Made by a program: the position numbers and the translations under genes
Shown here: positions 1-44,631 of the stretch, one piece after another
Numbering within the stretch: the first letter of the stretch is position 1
How the letters are laid out: every line of letters begins with the position of its first letter
Notes under the pieces: model-generated
Seen by the model: only the letters and a program-made list of their open reading frames with translations
Database searches by the model: none
Told to the model about the DNA's origin: nothing
Virus record (IMG/VR): IMGVR_UViG_3300046477_000157
Location: 1 to 44,631 of that record
DNA length: 44,631 nucleotides
Origin: a virus
Strand: one strand, 5' to 3'

Positions 1-146
1 AGCACCATCATCGACTCGCGATCATTCTTCTGATCGTTCGCCTTAGCCCAGCACTTGCGCCATCTGTTTGAGTCAAACGTTTGATCGTAGTAGCTTCTCT
101 CTTGCTTCGGCTTGCCGAACAAACGTGTTGCTGTCGATAGGGCGTG
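1..146. repeat. Terminal redundancy (circle-closing overlap), left copy
   Basis: Bases 1-146 are repeated at 44486-44631. The only difference is G at 127 against A at 44612. Genes run through the junction, so the molecule is circular or circularly permuted with a unique length near 44,485 bp. The overlap may be an assembly overlap carrying a population variant rather than a physical direct terminal repeat; the sequence alone cannot decide this. Confidence 0.95.
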
Positions 147-209
147 CTGCGGCAATAGCTGCACTCGATGTAGTTGCCATATGCGGAGCGCGGCGAACAC
201 TTCGTGCAT
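1..209 (-). CDS. Cas4/RecB-type nuclease, N-terminal part (continues from the right end)
   Basis: Circle-junction portion of the nuclease encoded at 43774-44631. Extending that frame upstream through the repeat reaches an ATG at 209-207. A good ribosome-binding sequence (GGGAG, 5 nt spacing, with GGAGG further upstream) precedes it, giving about 306 aa in total. The extension overlaps the end of the 180-aa gene by some 137 bp in another frame. Alternative starts are TTG at 155 or TTG at 122 (equivalent to 44607). The ATG is preferred only for its ribosome-binding site. Confidence 0.6.
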   Translation of the reverse strand, partial: MHEVFAALRIWQLHRVQLLPQHALSTATRLFGKPKQERSYYDQTFDSNRWRKCWAKANDQKNDRESMMV

Positions 210-615
210 CAACGCTCCCGCCTCCAGCGCCATCGACCGGGCCGTTGTCTCGTACTGCCTCTGTGCTGATACCGCTCCGTACGTCGGGCACGTGTTGATG
301 TTCGTCAAGCGACTGTTCGAGAACGGGTGCAGCAGCTTCTGTGCGGCTGTCGTTGGCGTGATCGACACTATCTGGTGCTGTCCCGGCCCCCGGTCGCGGA
401 CCTGTGGCTTCGCTCTTTTCGTAGCCAGCTTTGGCATCTAAGTACCTCCTGAGTTGTTCCTGGCAGCCCTCGACTACGATCATGAACTTAACCGGGTCTG
501 CCCCTATGTTCCTAACAGAAAACTCCAATGCGTGAAGCGCCTCATATAGCTCTGCGTCCGCCTTGGCATCGAAGTATGTCCCGTCGTCAGCAAGGAATCC
601 GTTGACGCTTTTCAT
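73..615 (-). CDS. Hypothetical protein, 180 aa, last gene before the nuclease
   Basis: Function unknown. The N-terminus (MKSVNGFLADDGTYFDAKAD) resembles small phage proteins that begin with a short domain of the type 'DDGTxFxxxxxAxxYE'. The middle and C-terminus are Ala/Pro/Asp-rich and look disordered. The start at 615 is chosen because its ATG overlaps the TGA of the preceding gene (ATGA coupling). An ATG 30 nt upstream lies in the same frame but inside that gene. The TGA stop at 75-73 lies in a TGTTTGAGTCAAAC palindrome. The single base difference between the two terminal copies is synonymous in this frame, which weakly supports coding. Confidence 0.7.
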   Translation of the reverse strand: MKSVNGFLADDGTYFDAKADAELYEALHALEFSVRNIGADPVKFMIVVEGCQEQLRRYLDAKAGYEKSEATGPRPGAGTAPDSVDHANDSRTEAAAPVLEQSLDEHQHVPDVRSGISTEAVRDNGPVDGAGGGSVDARSVRRAPHMATTSSAAIAAARPIDSNTFVRQAEAREKLLRSNV

Positions 616-785
616 TTCTTCTGCCTCTGCAAACTTTCCTCGCATCGCTTTGCCAATATCTCAGCGACTTCACGAGGAAGCACGACATGCGCCAATGTAC
701 GACCTGACGGGCCACGCCATAACAGTTGGCTATGTATCTCTGCAATCGCCATCTCTAGCGCCTCTAGCGTTTCCACTTTAGTCAT
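612..785 (-). CDS. Small hypothetical protein, 57 aa
   Basis: A small helical-looking protein beginning MTKVETLEALEMAIAEIH and ending in a Lys-rich tail (LQRQKK). No family was recognised. The evidence is arrangement: its ATG at 785 overlaps the end of the upstream gene (ATGACTAA) and its TGA overlaps the next ATG (ATGA). It therefore fills an otherwise unexplained gap in a tightly coupled minus-strand operon. Confidence 0.7.
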   Translation of the reverse strand: MTKVETLEALEMAIAEIHSQLLWRGPSGRTLAHVVLPREVAEILAKRCEESLQRQKK

Positions 786-1014
786 CCTTCTTTTGAGTCA
801 CACAGTTGCTCGCGTGCTTCACAATCGAATCGGCAAACTGCTTTGCGTCCTGTGGCCCGAAGCCGATCCATGCGATGCGCGTACCGAAGTCTACACGCAC
901 CATCTCACCGTCATCACTGATACTTACCATCAGTGCGCCTTCATCATCTGGAGTCGCCTTGCCCTGTGGGAATTCTCCGGTAGGCCCCAACCCTACGAAT
1001 ATCATCTTAACCAT
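778..1014 (-). CDS. Conserved-looking phage protein, 78 aa
   Basis: Small soluble protein with GEFPQGKATPDDEGAL near the N-terminus and a central VRVDFGTRIAWIGF stretch. This pattern is seen in uncharacterised phage early proteins; the function is unknown. An AGGAGG lies about 10 nt upstream of the ATG. The last codons (CVTQKKDD) run through a degenerate copy of the 15-bp palindrome at 790-804, so the repeat has supplied part of the C-terminus. The end overlaps the next ATG. Confidence 0.75.
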   Translation of the reverse strand: MVKMIFVGLGPTGEFPQGKATPDDEGALMVSISDDGEMVRVDFGTRIAWIGFGPQDAKQFADSIVKHASNCVTQKKDD

Positions 1015-1045
1015 TCACTTGTCCCTCCTGTGCCTGTGATGTGCA

Positions 1046-1370: not shown

Positions 1371-1490
1371 ACTATCCTCCTGCTATGTGTGTGACTCAAA
1401 CAGTGGCCCGCCGGAGTAGCGATGGGTGGCGGAACTCCGACTGGCCTGTACGCTGGCAGAGCGGGAACTATGCCAGCCTACCTCTGTCGC
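1371..1490. other. Intergenic unit boundary with palindrome and inverted repeats
   Basis: Holds a 15-bp palindrome (1388-1402) upstream of the Acb2-like gene and short inverted repeats such as GGAGT/ACTCC and CTGGCA/TGCCAG. No gene was seen. A degenerate mini-hairpin repeat (CGCCTACGCGAGCC) runs into the last codons of the neighbouring secreted-protein gene. Confidence 0.5.
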
Positions 1491-2252: not shown

Positions 2253-2326
2253 TTAGCACGTCCTTCTGTTCTGGGTCTTTGCACTCAGCAACAACCTAAT
2301 AGACCCTTGATCTTAGGCTGTTTGAC

Positions 2327-2434
2327 TCAAACAGGACCAATCGGCTGCGGTACGTCCGCGAACCAATAGATGGCCAATGCTGCAATAATCAAAGCAATAA
2401 GGATTGCAGCCGCAACGTACACCGAACGTTCCAT
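2327..2434 (-). CDS. Single-span membrane miniprotein, 35 aa
   Basis: Begins MERSVYVAAAILIALIIAAL and continues through a single hydrophobic segment (about residues 5-24), then a short polar tail (FADVPQPIGPV). The ATG follows the stop of the upstream gene by one base, with GAGGA about 8 nt ahead. The TGA stop lies within the palindrome at 2319-2333. A lysis or host-membrane role is possible; nothing specific identifies it. Confidence 0.65.
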   Translation of the reverse strand: MERSVYVAAAILIALIIAALAIYWFADVPQPIGPV

Positions 2435-3903: not shown

Positions 3904-3990
3904 CTGATCCCCCTTCGCAATCTGCGCTGTGTGAGTCAAACACCCGCTCCCCACCTTCGTGAGGACATGCTTCGCGAGTGCAGCCAGGCA

Positions 3991-4541: not shown

Positions 4542-4573
4542 GTTCTGCACTCCTGTTGTGTGTGACTCAAACA

Positions 4574-5543: not shown

Positions 5544-5763
5544 TTTGCACTCCTGTCTTCCCCGCCTTCGCGAGGACATGGTTTGAGTCAAACACCAACC
5601 TGCTCACTGCACTCCCACGCGAATGAGCCCGTATGTGGCCACTGCTACCATCCGACAACTCGTAATAATACAGCGGCACGCCAGTACCGAAGTACTGGCG
5701 CCCACCGTACGCATAGCCTTGGCCATTCACAGACACTCTTCGGCATACCGTTACCGTCACCAT
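5530..5763 (-). CDS. Hypothetical protein with repeat-encoded C-terminus, 77 aa
   Basis: Residues 1-56 (MVTVTVCRRVSVNGQGYAYG onward, Gly/Tyr-rich) look like a small beta protein. The last 20 or so residues (VFDSNHVLAKAGKTGVQ) are simply the palindrome and mini-hairpin read in frame. The gene therefore continues through the element and into the next gene's ribosome-binding site before stopping at 5530. Its ATG overlaps the end of the upstream gene. An ancestral protein probably ended near the palindrome. Confidence 0.65.
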   Translation of the reverse strand: MVTVTVCRRVSVNGQGYAYGGRQYFGTGVPLYYYELSDGSSGHIRAHSRGSAVSRLVFDSNHVLAKAGKTGVQNEAD

Positions 5764-6255: not shown

Positions 6256-6309
6256 TTTGCACTCCTATCGTGCCCCACCTCCGTGAGGCCATGGTGTTTG
6301 ACTCAAACA

Positions 6310-6582
6310 CTCACTGCCGGTCTGCCAACTGCTAATCCCCTTGCGCTGCTGGGCTGTGTTCATGACCACATGTGCAAACAGCTAGAGCGGAGGTAGTTAG
6401 ACTTGTCGTCAACAGACCGGCGGTACTCAACACTCGCTTGACATGGCACGTAACTCAACAGATCAGCCCACTAACTGACTACACCATGTTCAAGGCTTGT
6501 ATTGCATTCGGTGTGTGACTCAAACAGACCGGCCCATGGACCGATCACTCGACTAACCACCCCGTGTGCAAACAAGATCAAC
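6310..6582 (-). other. Leader region of the leftward operon, no gene seen
   Basis: About 270 nt between the leftward promoter and the first gene. It contains palindromes at 6295-6309 and 6512-6526. GCCGGTCTG at 6316-6324 can pair with CAGACCGGC at 6413-6421, and CAGACCGGC appears again at about 6524-6532. The alternative pairings could form competing RNA stems. No ORF with a convincing start was found. Confidence 0.45.
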
Positions 6583-6896: not shown

Positions 6897-7153
6897 GCGC
6901 CTGCTCCTTTCCCCGCCTTCGCGAGGACATGTGTGTGAGTCAAACACGTGCGCCTGTACCCCCGCCTGTCCCAGAGGCAAGCCTCGGCCATATCTGGTGC
7001 GCCTGTCCCAGAGGGGGGGGGGACGGCCGAAATGTGGCAAGATTGTGGCAGCGGCTGGACGCGGAACAGGCCGTGAACGCTGTGTGAGTCAAACAAGACC
7101 GCTCCAGGAATAGGACCGGATCGGCCCTATTCCTGGCGTTGCGTTGCATGCGG
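6897..7153 (-). other. Unit boundary with repeats and G10 run, no gene
   Basis: Holds the mini-hairpin (6911-6931), palindromes at 6932-6946 and 7081-7095, and a run of ten G at 7013-7022. It also holds a perfect 11-bp stem, CCAGGAATAGG (7104-7114) with CCTATTCCTGG (7126-7136), just past the stop of the 75-aa gene. No coding region was identified. Confidence 0.6.
7104..7136 (-). terminator. Perfect 11-bp hairpin after the 75-aa gene
   Basis: CCAGGAATAGG pairs with CCTATTCCTGG around an 11-nt loop, within 20 nt downstream of the stop at 7154. There is no uridine tract after the stem on the gene strand. It is the same class of boundary hairpin as at 3991, 7420 and 42071. Confidence 0.6.
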
Positions 7154-7381: not shown

Positions 7382-7419
7382 AGTCGCACTCCATTTTCTG
7401 TGTGAGTCAAACAAGGATC

Positions 7420-7454: not shown

Positions 7455-8522
7455 TTAGCTAGCGAGCTTCACCTCGATTGCGTTTTTCGTTTCCTCCAGT
7501 GCAGCGGCCGCACCCTTCGACAAGGCACCCTGCGTCTTTTCCAACGCAGTACGAAGCGCCTTACAGATAGTCACGATAGCAGCGTCAAGGCTTTCCTTGC
7601 CCGTCACTTCCGCGACCTTAACGGCTTGCTGCGCGAGTGTACCGCCCACAGTACCGCTTTGTTTGCCGCGATGCTGTGCGCCGCCCGCTCCCGGTGCCGC
7701 TGGCGCAACTCCTTGCGTTGCCGCGCCAATGTTCGCGAGAGCCTGGAACGAAGGTTTTTCGCTGAGTTTAACCGCAGCGTCACCAGTGCCGATAGTCTGG
7801 CGTTCGTCCAAGAGCACACGATCCTGCCCGAAATGCTTTTTGACCGCAGGGCCGGAGATCATAAGCGTACCCGACTTAGTGTCGAGCTTCGCTTCAATCT
7901 TTTGTTCGATCAGGCCGTGCGCGGCTTGTGCGCATTTCTTAAGCTGCGTCATAAAATTGGACCGGAAGGTATTTTTCTGGTCAAAGTTTTTGACGGTATC
8001 GCGGGTCTCTCCCGGCAATGGGAAGCAATCGCCAACGGCCTTAGCCGTGACAACCGCCTCATATGTCAGGCCATTACGATCAACCGTGCCTTTGATTTCA
8101 CGAAAACCAAGGGCAATGCCGAGTTGATCGTTAAGGCGTTCCATTGCCTTCTTATCGCCGCTGTAGGTCGCGGCAAGGTCAATGGAAGTATCGGCCCTTG
8201 CGGCTTTGGCAACCGCAAGCGTCAATTCCGACAATTGCTCGTAACGCTTCACACCACGCAACGTATGCAACTCTTCGACCAATTGCCCGACGCGGGCTTC
8301 GGCCGAAAACATCGCATGAATGACGCGCGGGCCGACATCTAAGGACAACGCAGACTTTTTGAGCGGGACTATACCGCCCGTCGTTTCGTTAGCCGCGCGT
8401 TCCGCAGCCGTTTCGGCCCTGCCTTGCGGCGGAGACTTAACGGCCCTAGTCGCGACTTTCGCCGCGACTGTCTTAGTGACCACCTTACCGGCGACCACCT
8501 TATTCGACACTATCTTAACCAT
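7455..8522 (-). CDS. Hypothetical protein with Lys/Ala-rich N-terminus, 355 aa
   Basis: Residues 2-35 are a basic Val/Lys/Ala stretch (NKVVAGKVVTKTVAAKVATR), possibly nucleic-acid binding. The centre is globular (VEELHTLRGVKRYEQLSELT, AVGDCFPLPGETRDTVKNF, SNFMTQLKKCAQAAHGLIEQ). A Gly/Ala linker and a helical C-terminus (CKALRTALEKTQGALSKGAA) follow. No catalytic motif was recognised. It is the largest gene of the early-like block and lies next to the control region, so a nucleoid- or regulation-related role is conceivable. GGAAATGGG lies upstream of the ATG chosen; a longer frame runs to 8579. Confidence 0.75.
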   Translation of the reverse strand: MVKIVSNKVVAGKVVTKTVAAKVATRAVKSPPQGRAETAAERAANETTGGIVPLKKSALSLDVGPRVIHAMFSAEARVGQLVEELHTLRGVKRYEQLSELTLAVAKAARADTSIDLAATYSGDKKAMERLNDQLGIALGFREIKGTVDRNGLTYEAVVTAKAVGDCFPLPGETRDTVKNFDQKNTFRSNFMTQLKKCAQAAHGLIEQKIEAKLDTKSGTLMISGPAVKKHFGQDRVLLDERQTIGTGDAAVKLSEKPSFQALANIGAATQGVAPAAPGAGGAQHRGKQSGTVGGTLAQQAVKVAEVTGKESLDAAIVTICKALRTALEKTQGALSKGAAAALEETKNAIEVKLAS

Positions 8523-9219: not shown

Positions 9220-9404
9220 CTGTCTGCGAACCTCCTTTCCAATCAATTAACTATCAAAATCTTAGCATTGTTTGACACAAACAGTCCATGCGACATAGTG
9301 TCGCACCCTAAGCCATTGATTTCATTGGGGAAATGACAGGTTGCGGAAAGCTATCAACACAACCTTATCATCCGGGATAGGACTTCCCTCGCCGCAAGGC
9401 ACGG
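9220..9404. other. Non-coding control segment
   Basis: Contains CTATCAAA at about 9251, a variant palindrome (9269-9283), operator copy 2 (9289-9305) and the start of a stem GATAGGAC (9376-9383) / GTCCTATC (9408-9415). No ORF with a plausible start was found and no clear -10/-35 pair was seen. Confidence 0.5.
9289..9305. promoter_or_regulatory. Operator copy 2, TGCGACATAGTGTCGCA
   Basis: Perfect 7-3-7 inverted repeat followed by CCCT. It matches the operators flanking the promoters at 6.6 and 10.05 kb. Confidence 0.75.
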
Positions 9405-9640
9405 AATGTCCTATCAACAACCAAATCGCGCACCGATCATCAATCAACAACCAAACAAACACCAATCAAACATCAAACAAACATTGCCGTGCATGATTTG
9501 CCGTGCCGATCCGCGCCGCCGGCACGTTTCCACGAAACCCCCACGAAACCCTATCTGTTTGACTCAAAAAGGGAGGCTCCAAAACCACATTATCAAACAA
9601 ACATCAAACAACAACCAAACAACATGCCGCTCCTACTCAA
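9405..9640. repeat. CAAAC/ATCAAACA-iterated, strand-skewed tract (origin candidate)
   Basis: The plus strand is strongly A+C biased, with many iterations of AACCAAAC, ATCAAACAAAC and CAACAACC. They are split by a short GC-rich block (9490-9545) and a variant palindrome (9556-9570). No gene is evident. Iterated repeats, strand asymmetry and position between the two divergent transcription units fit a replication origin or primer-RNA region. This is inference. Confidence 0.5.
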
Positions 9641-9770: not shown

Positions 9771-9882
9771 ATGCGGCACCGGCGGAACCTCAATACGATG
9801 AATAATGGCAGAATGCATGGTACGATGCACTGTGTGAGTCAAACACGGGCTGTTTTGTGTGGATGCAGGGTGGGATAATGAT

Positions 9883-10058: not shown

Positions 10059-10087
10059 TTGACAAATGAATAGAAATGTGCTAAAAT
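10059..10087 (+). promoter_or_regulatory. Sigma70 promoter, rightward, for the 76-aa zinc protein
   Basis: TTGACA (10059-10064), 17-bp spacer, TAAAAT (10082-10087). The operator abuts the -35. The gene starts about 100 nt downstream after the palindrome at 10166-10180. Confidence 0.8.
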
Positions 10088-10193
10088 AGCGAAGTTTCGC
10101 GTGAGAGCGAGAACGGATGCTGGTTATGGGTGGGGAGGGGTATATATACAATTCCGGCTCATCTCCGTTTGACTCAAACATCAGGTGTTGATC

Positions 10194-10424
10194 ATGGCTA
10201 TTGATCGTAGCTATCAGCGAAAGGGTACTGTTACCTTCGTATGCGATGGATGCGATAGAAGACTGGTCGTAGGCGTTAATCAAGGTTGGCCCAATGCCAT
10301 GGATTTGGTACGTCGAAAGCATTGGAAGATATGCAAAGAGGATGGCAAGTGGAGTCATTACTGTTGTAGTGGTTGTGCAATGCTTGGTAGCCTGTTCGGA
10401 AGCGTGCATTCGGTTGCTGTTTGA
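10194..10424 (+). CDS. Four-cysteine zinc-binding miniprotein, 76 aa (paralogue B)
   Basis: Contains FVCDGCDRR near the N-terminus and HYCCSGCAM near the C-terminus. The intervening NAMDLVRRKHWKICKEDGKW helix aligns with the minus-strand protein at 3420-3599. As the first rightward gene with its own operator-controlled promoter, it is a candidate regulator or early effector. ATG at 10194 (AGGTG, about 8 nt) is preferred over GTG at 10185. The TGA stop lies inside the palindrome at 10418-10432. Confidence 0.8.
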   Translation: MAIDRSYQRKGTVTFVCDGCDRRLVVGVNQGWPNAMDLVRRKHWKICKEDGKWSHYCCSGCAMLGSLFGSVHSVAV

Positions 10425-10432
10425 CTCAAACA

Positions 10433-20385: not shown

Positions 20386-20400
20386 TGTGTGACTCAAACA

Positions 20401-32700: not shown

Positions 32701-35700
32701 GCCTCCTGCACCGGCATGGCCGCCTCCTGGCTATGTCGAGGTAGACCCTGAAATGGTACGACAGTCGCAGTTGCAGCCTCCCCCTGCACCTACGCCTCCT
32801 GCTGCGCCAGCACCTACGTCCGTACCGACAACTCCCCGTGTGAGTCAAACACCGCCTGCACCCGCTGGGCCGCAAATTCCCCAAACGGCAGTCGGGAACG
32901 TTCCTATTCCAGACTATCCGGCGACTTCGTTCAGCCCTATCAGTTATGCACGTATGGCCGATGACCAGACCGCCCCGATCACGAGTTATTACAGAAAGTC
33001 AGGTGCAAGCTATGAAGCCCTCCAGAGACTCAAGGAGATTCTTCGGCTCCATACAGGAGGACAGGCATCTGCTATTGCAAGGGCAGCAGCAGAGAATGGC
33101 CATGCCCTAACTCCAGCTGTTAACTTCCACGTCGATACATCGTTGTCAGAGATTGCACGATATGCGAAGCACAACCCAGACTTTAATGACTATTTGCATG
33201 CAGGGGATACGCTTGATGAACTGCAAGCAATGCAGCGTAATCTATCCAATAGAAACAATCCACAACAGCAAGGGCTATTCTCTGGTTTGCCATCGACTAC
33301 AAAGGCTGGCCCAATGACTCTGCACGGCTATACCGAAGCCGACTTGCAGAAATACATACGAGATGCAGAACAGCTAAACCCAGACTTCGCACGAGTCGGT
33401 GAATTGTATCGTGCGAACATACGAGAAACGCGGCGTGCCATGGCTGAAGGTGAATATGCAACCATGACAAGCAAGAACCATGCAGACGCGAATGCCCTCA
33501 ATCCTAATGAGGTTCCGCAACACCGTCGAGACAGGAGCCGAGGGCGAGTCGATGCCGAAGGTCAGCCTATCAAGCGGCCTGATCCTATTGCGGCTGCGAT
33601 TGATTTCATCCACAGAGCTATCCGTAAGCGACTGACCAATGAGGCTGTGGGTCAGACAATCCATGCCCTTCACAACAATCCTGGTAGTCGTGGCATGTTC
33701 AGGCCAATCACATCAGCAGAACTGAGGCAATCCCCTCATCTGCTCTCGCGTGTGGTGACGTTCAGGCGTCGCGGTCAGTACGAGCACTGGCTAGCAAATA
33801 GCCAAACAATGGCAGACCTACTCAAAATGGACCCGTACCATTTCGCATCTCATTCAGGTACGCACATGCTGGATGCTGCCAGACGCTTGCAAGTGGCTAA
33901 CACCACCGGCTTGATGGCGCCTTGGTTTGCGAAGACCGATGCAGATCGCAACTGGCTCATTGGACAGATGACAGTAGGAGCCGCAAACAAAGGCATGGGG
34001 CCTGGACGGATAATTCCGAAAATGGTCATGGGCAGAAAACTTGGCTTCATTCCAGTTCCAGCGTTCCCCCGCAGACCGCCTAGCCGTTACGGAATAAGAC
34101 AAACCCTGGGACTTACCGGCTTTCCGCTTGGACCTGGTACGTTGCCATGGGCGGCCGCGTCACAACTCGTTCCAAGACTGGCGAAGCATGCAGCATTCTC
34201 GCTTAATGCAACAAGCGGTCACTGGATGAGGCGTGCGTTTGGCAATAAGGTGGCAGATCATCTAGCTACAGTACTAGCCGGTGCGTACCATCGCAGCACC
34301 CTCGCTCAGCTAGAAGCTAGAGGTACGCACAGTGGCGGTTTGATGCGTGCCGGAGAGAATCGACAGTTACAGAACAGCTACATAGATCAGGCAATCGCGC
34401 GGTCGAAAGCGGCAATACCTGGATTGGACACATCACTCTCAGGTGCAAGAAATGTGATCAACGCAGTGCATAGCATGCCGCAGTTCGCGTACATACAGCG
34501 CAATCTGAAGCATGTAGCGCGGCAGATTAGGAAGGAGATGGGTCCAAACGCAACGCACGAACAGGTGATGGAAGAGACACTTAATCGCTTACATCTAGAA
34601 GCGAACGACATGGCAGGTGATCCGCTGATTACAGGACGTGCCTACACACCTAGCGGTAGCAAAATCAGGTACGATCCTGGAGCGCAAGTAACCGGCTTCA
34701 AGAGATTTGCAGCATTGACAGCCGGGAAAATTGCTGAACACGGGTGGGTAGGGCTTAATGAATTCTTGCGCCACATGGCTTCTTGGCACAACATGACGAT
34801 GCAAGGTGCCAAGCGGTTTCCGGCTGCGTTTGTGAAGAACCCGACTGAGTTCCTGGCCAGGGCATTCACGTACGGCGCGGTCCCGTCTGCGCTTTCCTAT
34901 TGGTACAACACCAGTTTGGGAACAGACCCGCAAGGCATTCCATACGTTGACCATATGATGAATGGTAGAACTGAGTACAGGAAAGCTATGTATCATTACT
35001 TGGGCATCAAGGGGCTTCCTGCTTGGATGGGTCTTGAGTACCCGTCATTTCAGGAACTCATACCGATGAAGATGATGGTAGAGGCCGGAATGGACCATCT
35101 ATATGGAAAGAACATCTGGACCATGGGGCAGGATGCTCAGGCCGCACTAACATCAACCCTGGACAATGCAGTGCTTCCTCCATTGCATCCTCTGATGCAG
35201 GCTGTGTTTGAAGCTGCCGGCGTTGCAGCACCTGCAAACTATGGAGGGCTATGGCCGTTGAACAGGATGTTCGGCGGGATGCTTGGACAGAACACTGGAA
35301 ATGTCGATCTTGGCGGTGAAGTGTACGTACGCAGAGGCGACAAGTACATTGACCAAAACCGACCTGTATCGCAAATAATGTCAAGCACGTTCAGAGCCAT
35401 CGCTGCTGCCTCAGCCGATATGCTATTGGCAGGCTACGCTGCTGCCGCGCATACAGATGGCAGCCTGACAGATGCACTTGAGAATGCAGCTAAGGCGACA
35501 GGGAAGTTGGTCTTGAGACGCACGCCGGAGGTTGGAAACCTTTTGGGCTACGACAATCCTCTATCCAACAACACGCGCGTTACGGCTGAGATGATGGCTC
35601 GTCGAAATGCTGTTGATAGAATCAACAACTACTTCAATGCCTATGGCGTCACTGGAGTAGGTCATATCGGTCATGCCAAACCGATCAGTAAAAGCGGTGA

Positions 35701-36629: not shown

Positions 36630-36895
36630 GGGGATTTCTTGAGCGCCGTCCGCAGCTGTTCGATCTCAGCCTCCAGCACAGCAATGTAGTCGATCTCAGC
36701 CTCCAGCGCAGCAATGTAGTCGATGAGCCTGTTGATGTTAGCGTCTGCATCCATCCTTCCTCTCCGTCTGTTTGACTCAAACGCCACAACCATGCCAATA
36801 CAAGGTAGCGGCAGAATGTAGAGCTTGCGTGCGCTCCGATCCCAGAACGCACCAATCCACAAATCATACCAAGCGAAAATTGGTCTGATCGTCAT
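36626..36895 (-). CDS. Hypothetical protein, apparent fusion through the palindrome, 89 aa
   Basis: Residues 1-36 (FAWYDLWIGAFWDRSARKLY, then ILPLPCIG) follow a pattern familiar from very short phage proteins with Trp-rich sequence. Residues 37-47 (AFESNRRRGR) come from the palindrome at 36769-36783. Residues 48-89 are a coiled coil made by a 30-bp tandem repeat. An in-frame ATG at 36754 with AGAGGAAGG could start the coiled coil separately. The ATG at 36895 overlaps the polymerase stop (ATGA). Function unknown. Confidence 0.7.
   Translation of the reverse strand: MTIRPIFAWYDLWIGAFWDRSARKLYILPLPCIGMVVAFESNRRRGRMDADANINRLIDYIAALEAEIDYIAVLEAEIEQLRTALKKSP
36661..36720 (-). repeat. Two 30-bp tandem repeats in a coiled-coil gene
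   Basis: 36661-36690 and 36691-36720 differ at one base (ACA/GCA). Each encodes one 10-residue unit (IAALEAEIDY / IAVLEAEIEQ type), so the duplication lengthened the coiled coil in frame. Confidence 0.9.
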
Positions 36896-39363
36896 AGCTC
36901 GATACTCTTCATGTTACTCCATCGGTGCAGACCCTTGGCGTCCTCGACAAACCGTTTCGTCTTCTCGTCCCAGCTTGTCGGGTATGAAATCTTGCAGTCT
37001 GCACCGATGGACAATGGTTCAGCCGGCCTCCGACCCCAAGCATCCTGAATGAGTAGCGGGCTCTCCGCGTACTTCTTCAGGATGCGCAAGGCCACTTTGG
37101 CATACTTCGTCTCAGCAATGCCAACCAGATTGTCATGTACATTGATGGCGACACGCGCATGACCCTTCGGCCAATCATCATCCTCCTCTGCCTGATACCA
37201 TACCTGCACAACCTTATCCCCGATTGTGCTCTGGGGATAGAACGCCACAACCGACTTGGAGACTTCATCATCGACAGGCTGCAACACCCTGAACCTCCTT
37301 CCAAGTGCATTGAACAGCATTCGCTCCTTCTTGAATACCCTTTCCTCCTCCGCCCACCAGTCCTGCAACTCTGGCGTAATCTTGTGGTACAGCATGAATG
37401 CCCGTGCAGCAGTGTGATATGGTAGACCAGTCACTTCAGACAACTTGAACCGCTCCATGCGATAGTTCAGTCCATGCCGACAACGCTTCGATATGTAGCG
37501 CATCGTCGGATGGTTGTCTTCGTCCCAATCCTTTGTCGGCACCTGGGCATATGGCACACTGAACATCTCTGACGCCAGCGCACGATGACAGTCGTAGCTA
37601 CCGTCACGCTTCGCCCTGGCAAACTGCTCCTTCCATTTCGGTATGTCCGCCCTGAACGACACCACCTGAGCCTCTGCCTGCGCTAGATCAAAGTATATGT
37701 ATACGCATCCAGGATCAGCAATGAAGAATCCTCTGGCGCGCATCGGTTGGTTCTGAATGTTACCACCCTCTCCGTTGATTAACGCAGACGACGACAACCT
37801 TCCTGGTGCGTTCTGCACACCGAACTGCTTGAACTCGAACCTGAACCGACCATCCTTCGACTCCTTCGACTGCGCGTACGTGCCTCGGAACTTATCCTCA
37901 GTCTTGTACTTGTTGAGCGCAGCAAGCATCTCACGCTCGACAGGCCGCGTCCTTGCATGCTTCATTATGTGATCGCGATTCGTCTTATCCGTTGACAGCC
38001 CAACACCATTCAGGCTGAGCCGTCCAAAGAACAGTTCACGTAACTGCTGCCATGATGCCGGATTGGGAAAGTACGTTGTGTCATCCACACACTCATGCAC
38101 AAGCCGATGGAACTCACGCTCCAGATCGTCCACGTCCTTGTCGATCTCTTGTGCAATCGCCGCCTTGACCGTGGTGTCTACTGGCAACCCATGCACAGTC
38201 GCTTGGACCAAGTGTGGCTGCGCTCGCATCACATGATCGAAGAAGAACTTGTCCAGCTTCTGGTTCTTCAGTTCGAACTGTTCTCTCTCCGCGACAGCCC
38301 AGGTGATGGCGGCATCACGACAGTTGTAGACCCAAAACTCATTGATGTCTCCGCCCTCTTTCCAGTAGTCGCCCTCGTCTTTGTAATACGGATGATTCGT
38401 ATATTGGGCAGTGAGATAACCAAGATTATGCGGAAGTTGCGGATAGAGAGTGTGATGCGCAAGCAGCGTGTCAAAGTATACATGAATGCGTAGCCAATCT
38501 CGAAGCCAGCACCAATACGCATCGAATCCTCCGTTCTGTGCGATGACCTTGTGTGAGTCAAACAGCTTCTGTATCCGCATCCATATCTCACACTCCTCAC
38601 GAAGCGTAAACCGATTGCGGTCAGCATCTCTGAAGTTGATACATATGGCGCGATGCGCTTCGTTTGCCAACCCCATGCATGCTGTCTCGCCATTCAATCC
38701 TTCGATGTCAGCAGCTACCGGCTTGTCGCTGCGCATCAGATCGTCCATGAACATCATCACATCACGATACCCTGGATTGATGATTGCATCCACCTCATGT
38801 GGTTTGAACTTACCTGTGATGACCTTCCCAACCTTCTGCATATCCATCATGAACGTGATTTCAGACTTAGGCTCGTGCAGCAGATACGCTGGATTGTTGG
38901 CACAGATCGCCCTGCCATGCTTACCATTCGGCAAGTCAATATCAACAACAGACCCACGCCACGAGCCTATGCCTTCCTTGTTCAGGATGGCCGACAGCGC
39001 GTAGTTACCCAGCAGCACAACCGTTTTCAGGTTCGGCAACTGCGCCAGTTCCCACCTGAGCAACTCCTGCCACTGCGCAAGCTCGTCGCGATGCACCTTG
39101 AATGCGTCATTGCTTGATGCACTGATCTGACGTTTAATGACGTTGGTTGAATACACACCGCCTTGTGCTAGCCCATACCGTGCGACATGCTTCCACAGCA
39201 GTTGACCAGACTTACCTACAAACGGCGCATTCTTCCTGACCTCAACCTCACCCAGCCCTTCACCAATAAATGCAATCTCTGCATCCTCTGGACCGCTGGA
39301 TATAGCTTTCGGCTCAAGCCCAAATCCCTGCGCTATTGCAACAAACTCCTCAGCTACACTCAT
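36892..39363 (-). CDS. UDG-like / 3'-5' exonuclease / family A DNA polymerase fusion, 823 aa
   Basis: Replicative polymerase. Residues 1-190 are a family-4-like uracil-DNA glycosylase fold: FIGEGLGEVEVRKNAPFVGK and, near 155, NNPAYLLHE where active enzymes usually have HP, so the catalytic His appears replaced by Asn. The exonuclease follows: Exo I AADIEGL (D219, E221), Exo II QNGGFDAYW, Exo III YNCRDAAITW, all intact. Polymerase motif A is YFDLAQAEAQVVSF, motif B KRCRHGLNYRMERFKL, motif C INVHDNLVG (VHDN for VHDE). A UDG-PolA fusion is known from SPO1-type polymerases. A palindrome copy (38550-38564) encodes the LFDSH before Exo II. Confidence 0.92.
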   Translation of the reverse strand: MSVAEEFVAIAQGFGLEPKAISSGPEDAEIAFIGEGLGEVEVRKNAPFVGKSGQLLWKHVARYGLAQGGVYSTNVIKRQISASSNDAFKVHRDELAQWQELLRWELAQLPNLKTVVLLGNYALSAILNKEGIGSWRGSVVDIDLPNGKHGRAICANNPAYLLHEPKSEITFMMDMQKVGKVITGKFKPHEVDAIINPGYRDVMMFMDDLMRSDKPVAADIEGLNGETACMGLANEAHRAICINFRDADRNRFTLREECEIWMRIQKLFDSHKVIAQNGGFDAYWCWLRDWLRIHVYFDTLLAHHTLYPQLPHNLGYLTAQYTNHPYYKDEGDYWKEGGDINEFWVYNCRDAAITWAVAEREQFELKNQKLDKFFFDHVMRAQPHLVQATVHGLPVDTTVKAAIAQEIDKDVDDLEREFHRLVHECVDDTTYFPNPASWQQLRELFFGRLSLNGVGLSTDKTNRDHIMKHARTRPVEREMLAALNKYKTEDKFRGTYAQSKESKDGRFRFEFKQFGVQNAPGRLSSSALINGEGGNIQNQPMRARGFFIADPGCVYIYFDLAQAEAQVVSFRADIPKWKEQFARAKRDGSYDCHRALASEMFSVPYAQVPTKDWDEDNHPTMRYISKRCRHGLNYRMERFKLSEVTGLPYHTAARAFMLYHKITPELQDWWAEEERVFKKERMLFNALGRRFRVLQPVDDEVSKSVVAFYPQSTIGDKVVQVWYQAEEDDDWPKGHARVAINVHDNLVGIAETKYAKVALRILKKYAESPLLIQDAWGRRPAEPLSIGADCKISYPTSWDEKTKRFVEDAKGLHRWSNMKSIEL

Positions 39364-39557: not shown

Positions 39558-40084
39558 TTGTCTTCCTCCAATTTGTCAGCAACTAGCTTCATCTTCACTT
39601 CGAGTTCCGCGATCGAACCATTGTTGCGAATGATTACATGTGCGTTCGGGATCATGAACGGATAGACGCGTTCCACACTATCGCGTGTGATCTGGATCAA
39701 TCTATAATTGCCCAACACGCGGCAATCCAGAACGTTCGTACCGTCATCCACCACAATGTATTTAGGATTAATCACATTCTCCTTAGCCCTCGTCTGAAGC
39801 ATCTTGCCCATGACGTTCGGTCCATAATTGAACCTAAGATGCGCTGCCTCTAGCCTCAAGAAGTCCCTCGGCGTCTTCCACAACAACTCCCCCATTGACT
39901 CTTCCAGTCTGATCGCACTTGCCTTTCGACCCAACAGCGCGCCAAGATACTGCCTCATGGGAGACGTGAATGAGTGATGCATAGCCAGCAGGCCCATGCT
40001 TCGCAACGCCGCTACAAGCAACGATGCGGCAAGCGTCTTCCCACTCTGTGACGGACCTGTGAAAATCACATATGTTTGACTCAC
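39554..40084 (-). CDS. P-loop nucleotide (dNMP) kinase-like protein, 176 aa
   Basis: Walker A FTGPSQSGKTLA near residues 8-19, then MHHSFTSPMRQYLGALLGRK resembling a dNMP-kinase substrate region, IVVDDGTNVLDCRVL (Walker B-like) and a late YRLIQITRDSVERV as in kinase lid regions. The role would be to phosphorylate deoxynucleotides for replication; the specific substrate is not shown. The start codon is GTG at 40084, and both it and the helicase TGA (40083-40081) are supplied by the palindrome at 40073-40087. Confidence 0.72.
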   Translation of the reverse strand: MSQTYVIFTGPSQSGKTLAASLLVAALRSMGLLAMHHSFTSPMRQYLGALLGRKASAIRLEESMGELLWKTPRDFLRLEAAHLRFNYGPNVMGKMLQTRAKENVINPKYIVVDDGTNVLDCRVLGNYRLIQITRDSVERVYPFMIPNAHVIIRNNGSIAELEVKMKLVADKLEEDK

Positions 40085-41319
40085 ACACGCTTCTCCCTTC
40101 GCAGGCCGAGCATCATGGCACGACGATCAGTAATGACAATCACCTTACTCTTGGCTCGCGTTATGGCTGTGTAAAAGTTGTTGCGGTTCAGCAGGAATGC
40201 CGACGCTGCTGATATGCAGTATATCACCTGCTCGAACTCACTGCCCTGGGACTTGTGTGTCGTGATCGCGTAGCCCAACTCGATCTGCTTGCGAGGATCG
40301 TAATTGATTACGCATCGCAGGTACGTGTTATACGTGCGAATGCTCGGCGGCACTTCGATACACCGCCCATCCTCATTCTTCAGCCACAACGTTCCATCCT
40401 CCGTATCAATTCTATCCACGCGCCCAATCTCACCATTGAACATGGACAGCGCATAGTCGTTCTTGACCCATAGAAACTTGTCATTCGCACGCACAACCAA
40501 CTCGTTCTCGTGCTTGTCGAACCTCGGTAGTCGCAGCAGTTCCTTGCCTTTGTTCAACTTCACCTGTATGGATGGGTTGATGCGCAGCGTCCCGACGTTT
40601 CCCTTGCGAGTAGGCATGATGATCTGACTACTATCATCTCCGAACTCTGGATGCTTTTCCATATGCCTAATCAATGCCAACACGGGATAGTCTGTATACC
40701 AGACATCGAATCTCGGACTGCGAACTGGCACCTGTCCATGCAGTATCCGGTACGCGTTACTAACAATTTCATCGCCTGATCGAAAGTTGAACGTCAGCTT
40801 CACCGCTGGGAACTTCTCTAGCACTGTCCTGAACGGCGGATCGCCCTCCTCGACCGGGAGCAGTTGGTTGTTGTCACCAAAGAACCTGATTACGCCCTTC
40901 TTCTGAAGCGCATTTATCATTTGCCTATATAGCTCAGGCCCCACCATAGACGACTCGTCAACGAGAATGACGAACTCCTCGAATGGGTTGGCTGCGTTCC
41001 GTCTTGGCTCGTGTATGTTCTCGACTTCCTCATCGCCATCACCGAATATCGGATCACTGCCAGGCTGCGGAAACTCCAACAACTTGTGAATCGTCTTCGC
41101 TTGGATGCCGGTAAGCTCGTATATGCGCTTGGCTGCTCTGCCTGTTGGAGCGCATAGAGCAACCTTGTACCTCTTGGCTAGTTCTCGGTACACATGACCA
41201 AGCACTAGCGTCTTGCCTGTGCCTGCCCCACCCGTAACCCCTGCGATACGATTGGTCACATCGCAGCACATCTCGATTGCATGCTCCTGCTCGCCACTCA
41301 GATTCTGCTCATCGCTCAT
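40081..41319 (-). CDS. RecD/Dda-type SF1 helicase, 412 aa
   Basis: 5'-3' DNA helicase for replication or recombination. Walker A is VTGGAGTGKTLVLG (about residues 30-43), motif Ia LCAPTGRAAKRI, Walker B VILVDESSMVGPELY, motif III RFFGDNNQLLPVEEGDPPF. The C-terminal UvrD_C_2-type segment is GYAITTHKSQGSEFEQVIY, with motif VI FYTAITRAKSKV. At 412 aa it lacks the long N-terminal part of RecD2 and is of Dda-like size. It starts 2 nt after the upstream stop. Confidence 0.92.
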   Translation of the reverse strand: MSDEQNLSGEQEHAIEMCCDVTNRIAGVTGGAGTGKTLVLGHVYRELAKRYKVALCAPTGRAAKRIYELTGIQAKTIHKLLEFPQPGSDPIFGDGDEEVENIHEPRRNAANPFEEFVILVDESSMVGPELYRQMINALQKKGVIRFFGDNNQLLPVEEGDPPFRTVLEKFPAVKLTFNFRSGDEIVSNAYRILHGQVPVRSPRFDVWYTDYPVLALIRHMEKHPEFGDDSSQIIMPTRKGNVGTLRINPSIQVKLNKGKELLRLPRFDKHENELVVRANDKFLWVKNDYALSMFNGEIGRVDRIDTEDGTLWLKNEDGRCIEVPPSIRTYNTYLRCVINYDPRKQIELGYAITTHKSQGSEFEQVIYCISAASAFLLNRNNFYTAITRAKSKVIVITDRRAMMLGLRREKRV

Positions 41320-41320: not shown

Positions 41321-41623
41321 CTATCGTCCCTTCACCACACCCGGAGGAGCATTCGGATCGAGCACTGCCGACATGTGCGCGTCCCGCTGCTGAACCTTCG
41401 TACCGTCCTTATCGACACTCTCCTTGATTATAGTCAGACGATACACGTAGAGCGTATCCTCTCGCAACGCTGCTGCGTCTGTCGTATTCGTGCAGACAAG
41501 CGCCTGTGGTGGAGCATCCCCAGCCATTGCACTATTCCAATTGGTCCCATCGCTGTACGAGAACAAGTCGCCCGGCTTCAAATCACCGAGCGTTATCTTG
41601 GTTGCTACTACTCTAGCACGCAT
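41321..41623 (-). CDS. Hypothetical protein, 100 aa
   Basis: Small beta-rich domain: KITLGDLKPGDLFSYSDGTN, then PQALVCTNTTDAAALREDTL and YVYRLTI. No identified family; similar patterns occur in phage early proteins. TAATG coupling to the upstream gene. Confidence 0.72.
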   Translation of the reverse strand: MRARVVATKITLGDLKPGDLFSYSDGTNWNSAMAGDAPPQALVCTNTTDAAALREDTLYVYRLTIIKESVDKDGTKVQQRDAHMSAVLDPNAPPGVVKGR

Positions 41624-41829
41624 TACGCTGCCTCCTCAGATTTCGCCTCTGCCAGGACTGCTCTTGCCGCCTGGACCACCACATTACGAGTGAACTGCGC
41701 CTGGGTAATCTTCAGCAACCTTGCCGCTTCCGTAACATCGCGCCTGTCGTCAAGCCGAATCCTGACAACGATCTGGCACACGCCTTTGATGACCGACTCC
41801 CCAAGCCGTAGCTGAATTGCCTCAACCAT
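41623..41829 (-). CDS. Ribbon-helix-helix-like small protein, 68 aa
   Basis: VRIRLDDRRDVTEAARLLKI then TQAQFTRNVVVQAARAVLAE: a beta strand followed by two helices in the spacing of ribbon-helix-helix or DUF1778-type DNA-binding proteins, dimers that bind short palindromes. It is therefore one candidate for the factor that reads the dispersed 15-bp palindrome; that link is speculation. Overlaps the upstream gene by 8 bp. Confidence 0.6.
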   Translation of the reverse strand: MVEAIQLRLGESVIKGVCQIVVRIRLDDRRDVTEAARLLKITQAQFTRNVVVQAARAVLAEAKSEEAA

Positions 41830-42013: not shown

Positions 42014-42070
42014 CTTTGGCCTCTCCTCTTCCCCGCCTTCGCGAGGACATGGTTTGACTCAAACAGAGAA

Positions 42071-42640: not shown

Positions 42641-42698
42641 TACAATTCCTCCTGATGAGCAAGTCGGACAGCACCTGCTCACAACGGGTTTCAGATAC

Positions 42699-43550
42699 TC
42701 ACTGTCCTGAGCCGTTCGGGTTAATCTTCATGCCCTTCTTGGCCCATTCGCCATACCATCTTGCTATGGTCATCTGGCCCTTGTCAGGCAATTCCGCATT
42801 GTACTTCAACTCAAACTCTGCATCACTGCTACTCGAAAACATACGCGACTTCATTGGTCTTCGGAGACGAACCGAGCGCACCGCCAGCCTTCGATTTTCC
42901 TTGTTTGCTGACATATGCCATATCTCCGACAGACGGAATGTTACATTGTTGACCAACTGCCCTCCAAGCATGATGCTTATATGACTCACAACTTCCTTAC
43001 CGTCGCGAATTTCCATTACAGGATCGGCTTCGTGCGCAGTAGCAATCAAATGTACCCCATGCTTCGCAGTTACCCTGAGCAACCCTGTCAGCACCTTCAG
43101 CATTAAGGCATTGCGAGCACCGTACGCAGACTGCCCTGGCTCCTCAACCGTCGGGATGAAACCACGTCTGCCTGCTCCAATGCCCATCTCCACCGACCGC
43201 TGCAATGCCATATACACCAACGCCGTTACTGAGTCACACACAACTGTCTTGATGTCAGTATGCTGCGAGAGTATCTGGTCTAATCCAAAAGGATTGTCGC
43301 TTTTCCCGTGCTTGAATATCTCCTCTGGTGTGAGTCCCGACAAATCAGCCACGCGAACATCAGGACGATGCGCGACTGACACATGCTCTTGGTCGCCGAA
43401 CGACAGCCACAGTTTGTTTCCAGGTGCTGTTGCCGCGAAGGTGGTCTTTCCACAAGAGGATGGTCCCCATATGAGCACAGCCATTCTTCGAGGCGCTTCT
43501 GCTCCAGTCGTTACAGCAACTGGCCCTATCTTGAATGGCAATAGCGCCAT
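42699..43550 (-). CDS. Sak4-like RecA-fold ATPase (AAA_24 type), 283 aa
   Basis: Walker A LIWGPSSCGKTTFAA (about residues 28-42) and Walker B TVVCDSVTALVY, with an intervening GNKLWLSFGDQEH. A Gly/Arg loop (GIGAGRRGFIPTVEEPGQSA) precedes LLRVTAKHGVHLIATAHEAD, the sensor strand. This is the pattern of phage single-strand annealing/recombination ATPases. Located between the ssDNA-binding candidate and the nuclease, it probably forms a recombination module. Confidence 0.85.
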   Translation of the reverse strand: MALLPFKIGPVAVTTGAEAPRRMAVLIWGPSSCGKTTFAATAPGNKLWLSFGDQEHVSVAHRPDVRVADLSGLTPEEIFKHGKSDNPFGLDQILSQHTDIKTVVCDSVTALVYMALQRSVEMGIGAGRRGFIPTVEEPGQSAYGARNALMLKVLTGLLRVTAKHGVHLIATAHEADPVMEIRDGKEVVSHISIMLGGQLVNNVTFRLSEIWHMSANKENRRLAVRSVRLRRPMKSRMFSSSSDAEFELKYNAELPDKGQMTIARWYGEWAKKGMKINPNGSGQ

Positions 43551-43553
43551 AGC

Positions 43554-43772
43554 CTACCTCTTTCCTATAGAATCTGCCGGTATCACTATTGCTGTTTGAA
43601 TCAAACTCTTCTGCATCTCCGCAATCCGTTCGAGCACCACAGCTATACGCTCAAGCCGCGCACCGATAAACATAGCCGCACCAAGGATTGCATCCACGTC
43701 ACCAAGCCTTGGCGTATCCTCTTCGATTGCATGTATCGCGTCGAGCAGTTCGTCCACGACAAGCACATTCAT
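43554..43772 (-). CDS. Small helical hypothetical protein, 72 aa
   Basis: MNVLVVDELLDAIHAIEEDT, then IGARLERIAVVLERIAEMQK: an amphipathic helical protein, possibly oligomeric. It lies 1 nt after the nuclease stop and 3 nt before the ATPase start. A variant palindrome (43593-43607) is inside its C-terminal codons. Confidence 0.7.
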   Translation of the reverse strand: MNVLVVDELLDAIHAIEEDTPRLGDVDAILGAAMFIGARLERIAVVLERIAEMQKSLIQTAIVIPADSIGKR

Positions 43773-43773
43773 G

Positions 43774-44631
43774 TCAGTCTCCCTCTGCTGCTAGCTCCGA
43801 TGGGCTTGACTTCGCAGGAACCATCTCGTTCCATTGCTCGACCCTGCCATCTTGGGTGTCGCAGCAGAACGACAATAACGAACATGGCCGAAAGTATCGA
43901 TTGCAAGAATGCGTATACCGAGGCGCATGCTCATAGTTGTCCTTGTACTGCTCGTACATCTCCGCCGTGTGCCTGAACCAGAACGCCCAACGCTGTAGCT
44001 GTTCGCCTGTCCTATTCGTCACCAAAGGCCACACGTCTTCGCCCTTACCCGTTGGCTTGATCTTGAGCCCCAGGATGCGTGCGTTGTAGATGTCGAACCC
44101 ATACACAGACGCGGCGCATGCAAGATAGCCTGTCACCTGGTTCGACAACTGGAACGACGCCTTCCAACCTGCGTCCAGCCTCGATGCTGTCTTGTTGTCT
44201 TCGAGCGTAGAGAATCCCTTGGCGTTGTTGTACGTCAGGCCATCGAACGTCCCGATGAACCTAAACTGCTTACCGTCGTCGTACGTCAGCACCACATCGA
44301 ACGTGTTTTCGATCCCAACGACGGAGTTTGGATTCTTCTTGTCCTGTACGTAGATCGGGAAGTTGGACAAGGTAGGCAAGATGGTGTCGATATACACGAT
44401 ACACGCCATCTCCATGTTGCCAACAGTCCTGATCTTGTCCTCTGGACTGTCCTCCCAGCCACTACTACGCAGCATCTCGAACGCAAGCACCATCATCGAC
44501 TCGCGATCATTCTTCTGATCGTTCGCCTTAGCCCAGCACTTGCGCCATCTGTTTGAGTCAAACGTTTGATCGTAGTAGCTTCTCTCTTGCTTCGGCTTGC
44601 CGAACAAACGTATTGCTGTCGATAGGGCGTG
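43774..44631 (-). CDS. Cas4/RecB-type PD-(D/E)XK nuclease, C-terminal part in window
   Basis: Exonuclease-like: FIGTFDGLTY (catalytic Asp), LEDNKTAS (E-x-K-type motif) and SNQVTGYLACA (motif IV Gln..Tyr) occur in the order of Cas4/RecB nucleases. A C-terminal Cys cluster (THSCNRYFRPCSLLSFCC) plus a more N-terminal Cys could hold an Fe-S cluster. The 5' end crosses the circle junction and probably starts at the ATG at 209-207 of the left end (about 306 aa); TTG at 44607 is the alternative. Forms a module with the Sak4-like ATPase. A palindrome (44550-44564) is read in frame as TFDSNRW. Confidence 0.82.
   Translation of the reverse strand, partial: HALSTAIRLFGKPKQERSYYDQTFDSNRWRKCWAKANDQKNDRESMMVLAFEMLRSSGWEDSPEDKIRTVGNMEMACIVYIDTILPTLSNFPIYVQDKKNPNSVVGIENTFDVVLTYDDGKQFRFIGTFDGLTYNNAKGFSTLEDNKTASRLDAGWKASFQLSNQVTGYLACAASVYGFDIYNARILGLKIKPTGKGEDVWPLVTNRTGEQLQRWAFWFRHTAEMYEQYKDNYEHAPRYTHSCNRYFRPCSLLSFCCDTQDGRVEQWNEMVPAKSSPSELAAEGD
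44486..44631. repeat. Terminal redundancy, right copy
   Basis: Second copy of the 146-bp end repeat, with A at 44612 where the left copy has G at 127. The change is synonymous (Asn AAC/AAT) in the overlapping 180-aa reading frame. It is Thr/Ile in the upstream-extended nuclease frame. Confidence 0.95.

Follow-up and report, generated by a model that had tools for sequence, protein, structure and literature searches.

The conserved inverted repeats of Streptomyces phage phiC31 are palindromic repressor sites that lie in many intergenic regions, and the operators of the regulator KorB are scattered sites whose consensus has a central S. ParB, Noc and KorB organise DNA through palindromic sites. 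Several other systems of repeated sites have been characterised. As described in PMC9283540, cluster A mycobacteriophages (L5, TipsytheTRex) carry more than 20 genome-wide stoperators in promoter regions and short intergenic spaces, each a 13-bp asymmetric site bound by a monomer and oriented with transcription. The start-associated sequences of cluster K are described in PMC3203893 as non-palindromic, nearly all in one orientation, typically 3-7 bp from the start codons beside which they lie, and as containing the Shine-Dalgarno core. In Bacillus phage SPbeta, SPBRE is a 15-bp motif in various intergenic regions that is bound by MrpR (PMC10516654), and in plasmid RK2, KorB loads at palindromic operators and then slides along DNA (PMC11790492). 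Here, we describe a 15-bp palindrome, TGTTTGA-S-TCAAACA, in IMG/VR virus record IMGVR_UViG_3300046477_000157, whose whole length of 44,631 nucleotides was analysed and is referred to as the window. We document the number, place, conservation and symmetry of its copies, the independence of its arms and its lineage-specific letters. We lean slightly towards the view that a dimeric regulator, encoded by the phage and quick to change its specificity, uses the palindromes as operators or stoperators.

Number and placement of the palindrome in the window

An earlier note on this DNA had described a motif repeated about 40 times, and this count is borne out: 42 matches with up to three mismatches were found in the window, while 100 dinucleotide shuffles of the window averaged 1.04 and never exceeded 4. 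Of the 42 copies, six match perfectly and 40 deviate at no more than two positions. Since the window carries a 147-bp direct terminal repeat with one base different (1-147 vs. 44485-44631), the copies at 65 and 44550 are one place, which leaves 41 distinct places; the genome is about 44,484 bp and is circularly assembled or terminally redundant. The codon-preserving check proposed in the note was run on the unique circle (1-44484), with each gene's codons kept and intergenic stretches shuffled by dinucleotides. It gave 39 copies with up to two mismatches, whereas the 100 shuffles averaged 0.6 copies and never had more than 3. Gene boundaries and start codons, here and below, come from our own gene caller. 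The copies are as follows (strand '.' throughout).

65..79, copy TGTTTGAGTCAAACG, terminal-repeat counterpart of 44550
790..804, copy CTTTTGAGTCACACA, 3 mismatches
1388..1402, copy TGTGTGACTCAAACA
2319..2333, perfect copy
3928..3942, copy TGTGTGAGTCAAACA
4559..4573, copy TGTGTGACTCAAACA
5580..5594, copy GGTTTGAGTCAAACA
6295..6309, perfect copy
6512..6526, copy TGTGTGACTCAAACA
6932..6946, copy TGTGTGAGTCAAACA
7081..7095, copy TGTGTGAGTCAAACA
7399..7413, copy TGTGTGAGTCAAACA
9269..9283, copy TGTTTGACACAAACA, divergent control region
9556..9570, copy TGTTTGACTCAAAAA, control region
9831..9845, copy TGTGTGAGTCAAACA, control region
10166..10180, copy CGTTTGACTCAAACA, control region
10418..10432, perfect copy, control region
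10483..10497, perfect copy, 65 bp from the copy at 10418
10857..10871, perfect copy, immediately 5' of the Shine-Dalgarno sequence of the gene at 10883
11771..11785, copy TGTTTGAGTCAAACG
12964..12978, copy TGTTTGACTCAAATG, overlaps the called TerL start codon
13628..13642, copy TGTTTGAGTCAGACA
14495..14509, copy TGTGTGAGTCAAACC
15563..15577, copy CGTCTGAGTCAAACG, within the portal gene, 3 mismatches
16220..16234, copy TGTTTGACTCAATCA, within the portal gene
17298..17312, copy CGTTTGAGTCAAACG
18235..18249, copy TGTTTGAGTCACACA, before the major head gene
20386..20400, copy TGTGTGACTCAAACA
21129..21143, copy TGGGTGAGTCAAACA
23010..23024, copy CGTTTGACTCAAACA
24847..24861, copy TGTTTGAGTCAAACT
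26574..26588, copy CGTTTGACTCAAACA
28962..28976, copy TGTTTGACTCAAACG
29731..29745, perfect copy, before the tape-measure gene
31364..31378, copy GGTTTGAGTCAAACA, within the tape-measure gene
32837..32851, copy CGTGTGAGTCAAACA, within the tape-measure gene
36769..36783, copy TGTTTGACTCAAACG
38550..38564, copy TGTGTGAGTCAAACA, within the polymerase gene
40073..40087, copy TGTTTGACTCACACA
42051..42065, copy GGTTTGACTCAAACA, upstream of the 41822/RHH (ribbon-helix-helix) gene pair
43593..43607, copy TGTTTGAATCAAACT
44550..44564, copy TGTTTGAGTCAAACG, terminal-repeat duplicate of 65

The note had placed the copies mostly between a stop codon and the next ribosome-binding site. This is true of the majority, with 28 of the 42 copies intergenic against 4.5 expected, but 14 of the 42 overlap called genes by over 7 of their 15 bases, and these genes include those for the portal, the tape measure and the polymerase. 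In the window, the divergent control region (8,992-10,882, 1.89 kb) holds seven sites, or 3.7 per kb compared with 0.9 genome-wide, and several of them are distant from every called start codon. Control-region density exceeded genome density in all 15 records in which such a region was found, out of the 19 compared (the window and the relatives introduced below). Two promoter-like sequences lie in this region, both of them consensus matches only.

10059..10087, + strand, promoter-like, TTGACA-17-TAAAAT with TG ahead, rightward
10573..10601, + strand, promoter-like, TTGACA-17-TATATT with TG ahead, rightward

A weaker promoter-like sequence at 9272-9299 overlaps the copy at 9269, and a terminator-like match has the copy at 9831 as its stem. 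The control region also contains a long G-run (around 9753-9771), made up of two G stretches split by one T, downstream of several ATCAAACAAACAT-like repeats.

Relatives, lineage-specific words and conservation

An IMG/VR scan with the major head protein returned 206 relatives, of which the best 80 were kept. We compared 18 of them, full or partial records, which with the window makes 19; G005 and G006 are near-duplicates of the window, and G008 and G009 of G007. The first 30 bases recur near the record end in 12 of the 19, the window included. All 18 relatives have this kind of site, in 24-49 copies each (at most one mismatch in ten fixed bases), where chance would give an estimated ~1 per genome; G016 has 24 copies by this common count and 36 by its own pattern. 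The pattern GTNTGASTCANAC was present in 22 of 22 records searched, with 1-40 copies per strand, and its reversed control in none of the 22. The lone single-copy record was again G016, whose letters differ.

The half-site letters differ between lineages, even between relatives whose head proteins are 97% identical. TGTTTGA is the word of the window, G001-G006, G017 and G018, and [AG]GT[TG]TGA that of G007-G009; in G010 and G011 the outer G is loose. The word is TGTGTGA in G012 and G014, NGTGTGA in G013, TGT[AG][TC]GA in G015 and TGTGTG[TA] in G016, and the half-sites seen among the relatives include TGTATGA and AGTTTGA. In full, the words read as follows.

Window word: TGTTTGACTCAAACA
Other-lineage words: TGTGTGASTCACACA, ACTTTAASTTAAAGT

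The earlier statement that TGTGTGA never occupies both arms is correct for the window, where it fills 14 of 84 half-sites and chance would give only about one double (estimate); it does not extend to relatives such as G014, which normally use TGTGTGA in both arms.

More distant phages were sought by a helicase-alignment scan (best 80 of 311). The more distant G024, G026 and G028 have no excess of GT.TG sites but carry other palindromes. G024 has 40 sites of ACTTTAA-S-TTAAAGT (at most one mismatch), 27 of them intergenic at an intergenic fraction of 0.076, and a 13-kb fragment, G026, has 20 sites of GATTAA-S-TTAATC, 10 of them intergenic at a fraction of 0.197. G028 has 56 sites of CTACAG-N3-CTGTAG, with a centre that is mostly A or T, not S. 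In all three, gaps to the following start codon are mostly 10-21 nt, like those in the window's group. A 5-kb fragment, L324, has three copies of ATCTTTAA-N-TTAAAGAT, and no repeated palindrome was found in G029 or G030. Across lineages the layout persists: a site of about 15 bp that usually centres on S and recurs roughly once per kb, for the most part between a stop codon and the next start. Outside the group, none of the four records examined among 615 phage records with a similar polymerase had a comparable palindrome, the nearest being TCCCA-3-TGGGA with six copies in Desulfofustis phage LS06 vs. four in a shuffle.

One phage group thus uses at least four words (GTNTGA, CTTTAA, CTACAG and GATTAA), with up to 56 copies per genome. 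It is conceivable that the phages exploit a host-encoded regulator and that the letters differ because hosts differ, the more so as no phage binder emerged. We nevertheless consider this improbable, given that such a factor must suit every lineage equally and that other letters already appear at 97% head-protein identity. The lineage-specific words point instead to a binder that is phage-encoded.

Comparison of close relatives suggests that the motif core is under purifying selection. Between the window and G005, the cores of intergenic sites differ at 0 of 253 positions and their 20-bp intergenic flanks at 120 of 859, while other intergenic DNA is 12% and coding DNA 5% different; copies inside genes differ at 2 of 248 positions. 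Between G001 and G002, the core differs at 1 of 158 positions and the flanks at 69 of 289. The same alignments bear on the proposal that the sites are boundary sequences for recombination that shuffles gene cassettes. The sites do lie at gene junctions, and the gene content of relatives does differ. However, alignment breakpoints fell within 25 bp of a site in 1/12, 1/4, 10/32, 8/39, 3/38, 2/28 and 1/2 cases in seven pairs, compared with 2.8, 1.5, 12.0, 11.9, 8.8, 6.5 and 0.7 expected at random gene boundaries. Breakpoints are therefore no nearer to sites than to gene boundaries in general, and we disfavour this proposal as extremely improbable.

The preference for intergenic DNA extends to the group: 449 of 694 sites in the 19 records, some of them near-duplicates, are intergenic, compared with about 74 expected. 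Sites lie within 150 bp upstream of a start in 397 of the 694 cases, and the gap peaks at 10-19 nt (178 of 397). The note had asked whether the same junctions are used in relatives. Usage common to many records is evident upstream of TerL (15 of 18 records), the major head gene (15 of 19), the tape-measure gene (15 of 18) and the 41822 gene (12 of the 12 records having it). It is not fixed, however, falling to 0 of 17 upstream of 2871-3254.

We next consider whether the element acts as RNA, as a hairpin, a processing site or a translation-initiation cassette in mRNA. In 18 records, with G016 kept apart, both arms have the same letter at position 4 in 384 of 658 sites, where independence would predict 418, and at position 1 in 330 of 658 (350 predicted). 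No complementarity of flanking bases was detected in these 18 records; G016, counted apart, showed a slight excess: its first three flanking positions were complementary in 15, 15 and 16 of its 36 sites. With neither compensatory changes in the arms nor complementary flanks and thus no extended stem, an RNA hairpin is unsupported, and the mRNA cleavage signal suggested in the note fails in that form. The independence of the half-sites instead favours DNA read by a symmetric protein, most simply a dimer, and together with symmetry and conservation it suggests that a binding protein exists.

The gap peak does suit a role in translation, as do the copies closest to start codons. With five near-duplicate or fragment records left out and with self-called start codons, the centre base is G in 47 of 48 sites whose start codon lies at -2..4 nt, compared with 99 of 208 at 5-45 nt (p = 2e-12), and position 4 of the upstream arm is G in 42 of 48 vs. 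101 of 208. Start-abutting copies often read GTGAG at Shine-Dalgarno distance, and two zero-gap copies in G028 read CTACAGGAGTTGTAG-ATG, which contains AGGAG. The binding word thus seems to be adjusted where needed to double as a ribosome-binding sequence. The start signal of the earlier note therefore survives for start-touching copies, but other sites lie within genes or in control regions at a distance from any gene, and those in co-directional intergenic gaps of 60-400 bp are not tied to starts, 34 of 77 being nearer the stop than the start. The terminator-like stem at 9831 is at chance level, and Rfam and tRNA scans of the window returned nothing, with no Rfam match at gathering score. 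Taken together, we regard an element acting at the RNA level as very improbable.

The strongest rival to operators of a dimeric regulator is that the sites organise the genome, with a phage protein that structures, segregates, protects or packages the DNA and regulation secondary. The two transcription arms both carry sites, long genes contain some as well, and in the seven records measured their spacing is more even than random (coefficient of variation 0.57-0.73). Yet gene lengths would produce even spacing too, the sites strongly favour intergenic DNA, and no ParB-, ParA- or Noc-like protein was found among the 34 of the window's 59 proteins that were scanned with Pfam and/or PHROGs. We judge this rival unlikely. 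Among 37 distinct site pairs less than 150 bp apart, spacings of 76, 86 and 65 bp recur four, three and two times, too few to claim helical phasing.

Other repeats occur as well. The hairpin-like repeat CCTCGCGAAGGYGGG(G) has 11 copies in the window, eight in G005 and 0-4 in the other 17 records, and some copies come right after a palindrome copy, e.g. near 7399 and 14495. Distant records without A3 or A5 (two proteins introduced below) carry a CAACA-2-TGTTG palindrome (L399, L417 and L425; 18 copies in 14 kb in L399) or a TATAC-GTATA palindrome (L412 and L413; 5-6 copies).

Candidate binding proteins and gene content

Three proteins of the window were considered as possible binders.

7455..8522, - strand, A3, 355 amino acids, candidate only; presence tracks the palindromes
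73..645, - strand, A5, 190 amino acids, candidate only; presence tracks the palindromes
41623..41829, - strand, 68-amino-acid ribbon-helix-helix protein (RHH), rejected as binder

Among 29 palindrome-bearing records, A5 is present in 27 and A3 in 24. The records that lack them are fragments or linear contigs (G006 and G008 for both; G009, G054 and G012 for A3 also), and G012 has a piece of A3 (E 1e-4) at its very contig end. Neither protein was found in 17 distant-relative records of 29-47 kb, while the same searches found them in six of six palindrome-bearing records. Of the 17, four carry a different palindrome with a shorter spacer, CAACA-2-TGTTG or TATAC-GTATA. One more search detected A3 in 8 of 13 palindrome-bearing records and in none of four others, the five misses being four 15-18-kb fragments and G054. 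Because palindromes, A3 and A5 may share one branch of the tree, this co-occurrence is confounded with ancestry and makes the two proteins candidates, not proven binders. A3 belongs to no recognised family, with weak hits in single members only, and comparison of its model (pLDDT 73) with solved folds gave no convincing match, the best E in Foldseek being 0.59 and the best Z in VIA 3.7 over 677 Foldseek-ranked chains; this does not prove that the fold is new.

The window also has, at 6628, 9290 and 10038, a second and rare palindrome, G[CT]GACA-N3-TGTC[AG]C. In 7 of 24 A3-bearing records, from different primary-motif classes, it lies 52-128 bp upstream of the A3 frame, and 11 of the 24 have no copy; it may be A3's own operator.

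RHH looks like a DNA-binding protein. It has weak Pfam hits (TacA1 in 10 and NikA-like in 8 of 13 members), its AlphaFold model has a pLDDT of 87, and most of its Foldseek neighbours are DNA binders of the ribbon-helix-helix type, although the E-values are weak (0.37 at best). It is present in 92 of 99 sources, and a site lies upstream of its two-gene unit in all 12 records that have the 41822 gene. We rejected it as the binder; it was not found in the palindrome-bearing G024, G028 and G026 (the last a 13-kb fragment), and 45 of the 59 more distant loci compared, each 6 kb or longer, have a member of its family but no palindrome in five or more copies. A4 (4056-4541) and 2871-3254 were likewise set aside: both track the palindromes among the fetched genomes, but wider profiles place them in many palindrome-free loci.

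The window is the genome of a tailed phage, with terminase, portal, major head protein, tape measure, helicase, Sak4 and DNA polymerase A recognised in the Pfam/PHROGs scans. No near DNA relatives were found among named phage records, where MCP and TerL have relatives at just ~22-28% identity and RHH and A3 none. Scans of genome_contigs with MCP and TerL, reliant on short peptide patterns, returned no relative of the phage group.

Three further genes stand out. The frame at 36892-39363 (- strand) encodes DNA polymerase A and, at the N-terminus of the same protein, a uracil-DNA-glycosylase domain. A 75-amino-acid protein (1143-1370, - strand) matches the Acb2/Tad1 hairpin domain (PF24729, E 9e-12) and has homologues in 7 of 18 relatives; we take it to be a likely anti-CBASS/anti-Thoeris sponge. 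The protein encoded at 1491-2252 (- strand) carries a PEP-CTERM motif at its C-terminus (E 0.00026), which may hint at the host group; among the 18 relatives the protein was seen only in G005, where it is partial.

Proposed mechanism and comparison with known systems

Of the roles offered in the earlier note, an operator for one dimeric regulator is the best supported, by independent half-sites, conservation and lineage-specific letters, with A3 and A5 as candidates for the binder. In this scheme, a symmetric, dimeric, sequence-specific regulator, most likely phage-encoded, would bind the repeats as double-stranded DNA. Copies in the control region (9.0-10.9 kb) would act as ordinary operators, and those at about every second gene junction would be stoperator-like roadblocks that stop or meter transcription through them. 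An effect on transcription, and a block to elongation in particular, is suggested by analogy with stoperators. The whole phage genome could thereby come under one switch, and the regulator would co-diverge with its sites to give an immunity-like specificity.

Several results weigh against this proposal. Lysogeny, the usual reason for stoperators, is without any sign and is the main weakness: the 34 of 59 proteins that were scanned included no integrase, no partition protein and, RHH aside, no repressor, and pattern-based scans of genome_contigs found no relative. By estimate, the control region is no denser in sites than intergenic DNA as a whole. Neither of the top two promoter-like sequences (10059-10087 and 10573-10601) overlaps a site, and promoter-like and terminator-like matches at 8500-11000 are not in excess (four and three, vs. 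2.7 each in shuffles). Conservation is weaker in G004 vs. G017 (core 11/171, flanks 221/447) and in G010 vs. G011 (core 7/77, flanks 56/168), and between the window and G001 intragenic copies differ at 33 of 129 positions, much as coding DNA does. G028 has just 17 of its 56 sites between genes, at an intergenic fraction of 0.119.

Finally, Mantel tests and per-column mutual information revealed no gene that covaries consistently with the motif letters beyond relatedness. In a first Mantel set (35 of 66 sources, identical RHH removed), partial r was -0.16 for RHH (p 0.99), 0.17 for SSB (p 0.04) and 0.23 for the helicase (p 0.001). A second set left out the near-duplicates G003 and G005 and records lacking a family. 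It gave 0.24 (p 0.13, 20 genomes) and 0.14 (p 0.11, 18 genomes) for A3, and -0.31 and 0.06, respectively, for A5; p was below 0.05 for SSB in both versions and for Sak4, A4 and MCP in the larger only. Given the number of tests, these low p values are not taken as signal. The best RHH column in the mutual-information analysis ranked 92 of 2393.

A broader claim is possible but doubtful: that the approximately 40 palindromic sites and at least four words belong to a group-wide control or organising system whose binder is of an undescribed family, with A3 and A5 the best candidates, and which perhaps operates without known lysogeny. If true, the differing words of these lineages would supply a natural, ready-made code of protein-DNA specificity. 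Co-evolution of the regulator with some 40 sites is directly testable, with more than 200 public contigs (the 206 head-protein relatives), and the embedded ribosome-binding sequence would show a compact genome fitting two codes into one 15-bp word.

Among the literature matches listed, none described such a group-wide palindromic system. The mycobacteriophage stoperators, named as the nearest analogue in the earlier note, are a good functional one: here too there are many intergenic sites (28 of 42), seven of the copies being in a control region with consensus-only promoters. The site described here is, however, a 15-bp palindrome with no needed orientation, and no L5-type repressor was hit among the scanned proteins (34 of 59). 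SPBRE is closer in site length. Both it and the palindrome are repeated intergenic motifs of about 15 bp, and SPBRE is recognised by one phage master repressor, as a single regulator is proposed here. The SPBRE motif was derived from nine ChAP-seq (chromatin affinity purification sequencing) peaks, compared with about 40 sites per genome here (PMC10516654). MrpR has a tyrosine-recombinase fold, whereas the scanned proteins (34 of 59) gave no integrase-family hit and the A3 model found no convincing counterpart in the PDB. SPbeta, moreover, is a prophage.

The start-associated sequences of cluster K resemble the palindromes in being repeated by start codons, where some copies here double as Shine-Dalgarno sequences. 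They differ in symmetry and position: ours are palindromes, and of the 256 sites with a gap of -2..45 nt no more than 48 fall at -2..4 nt, with many sites elsewhere. The KorB operators of RK2 share palindromic sites under one global regulator (PMC11790492), but RK2 is a plasmid and KorB a ParB-family CTP clamp protein, for which the 34 of 59 proteins scanned gave no hit. The phiC31 conserved inverted repeats differ in sequence from the palindrome described here. Genome-wide repeated operators are known from a few temperate phages; here such sites occur in every compared member of a diverse, uncultured phage group, and the palindromic, dense, group-wide and word-switching version that doubles as a ribosome-binding sequence looks new.

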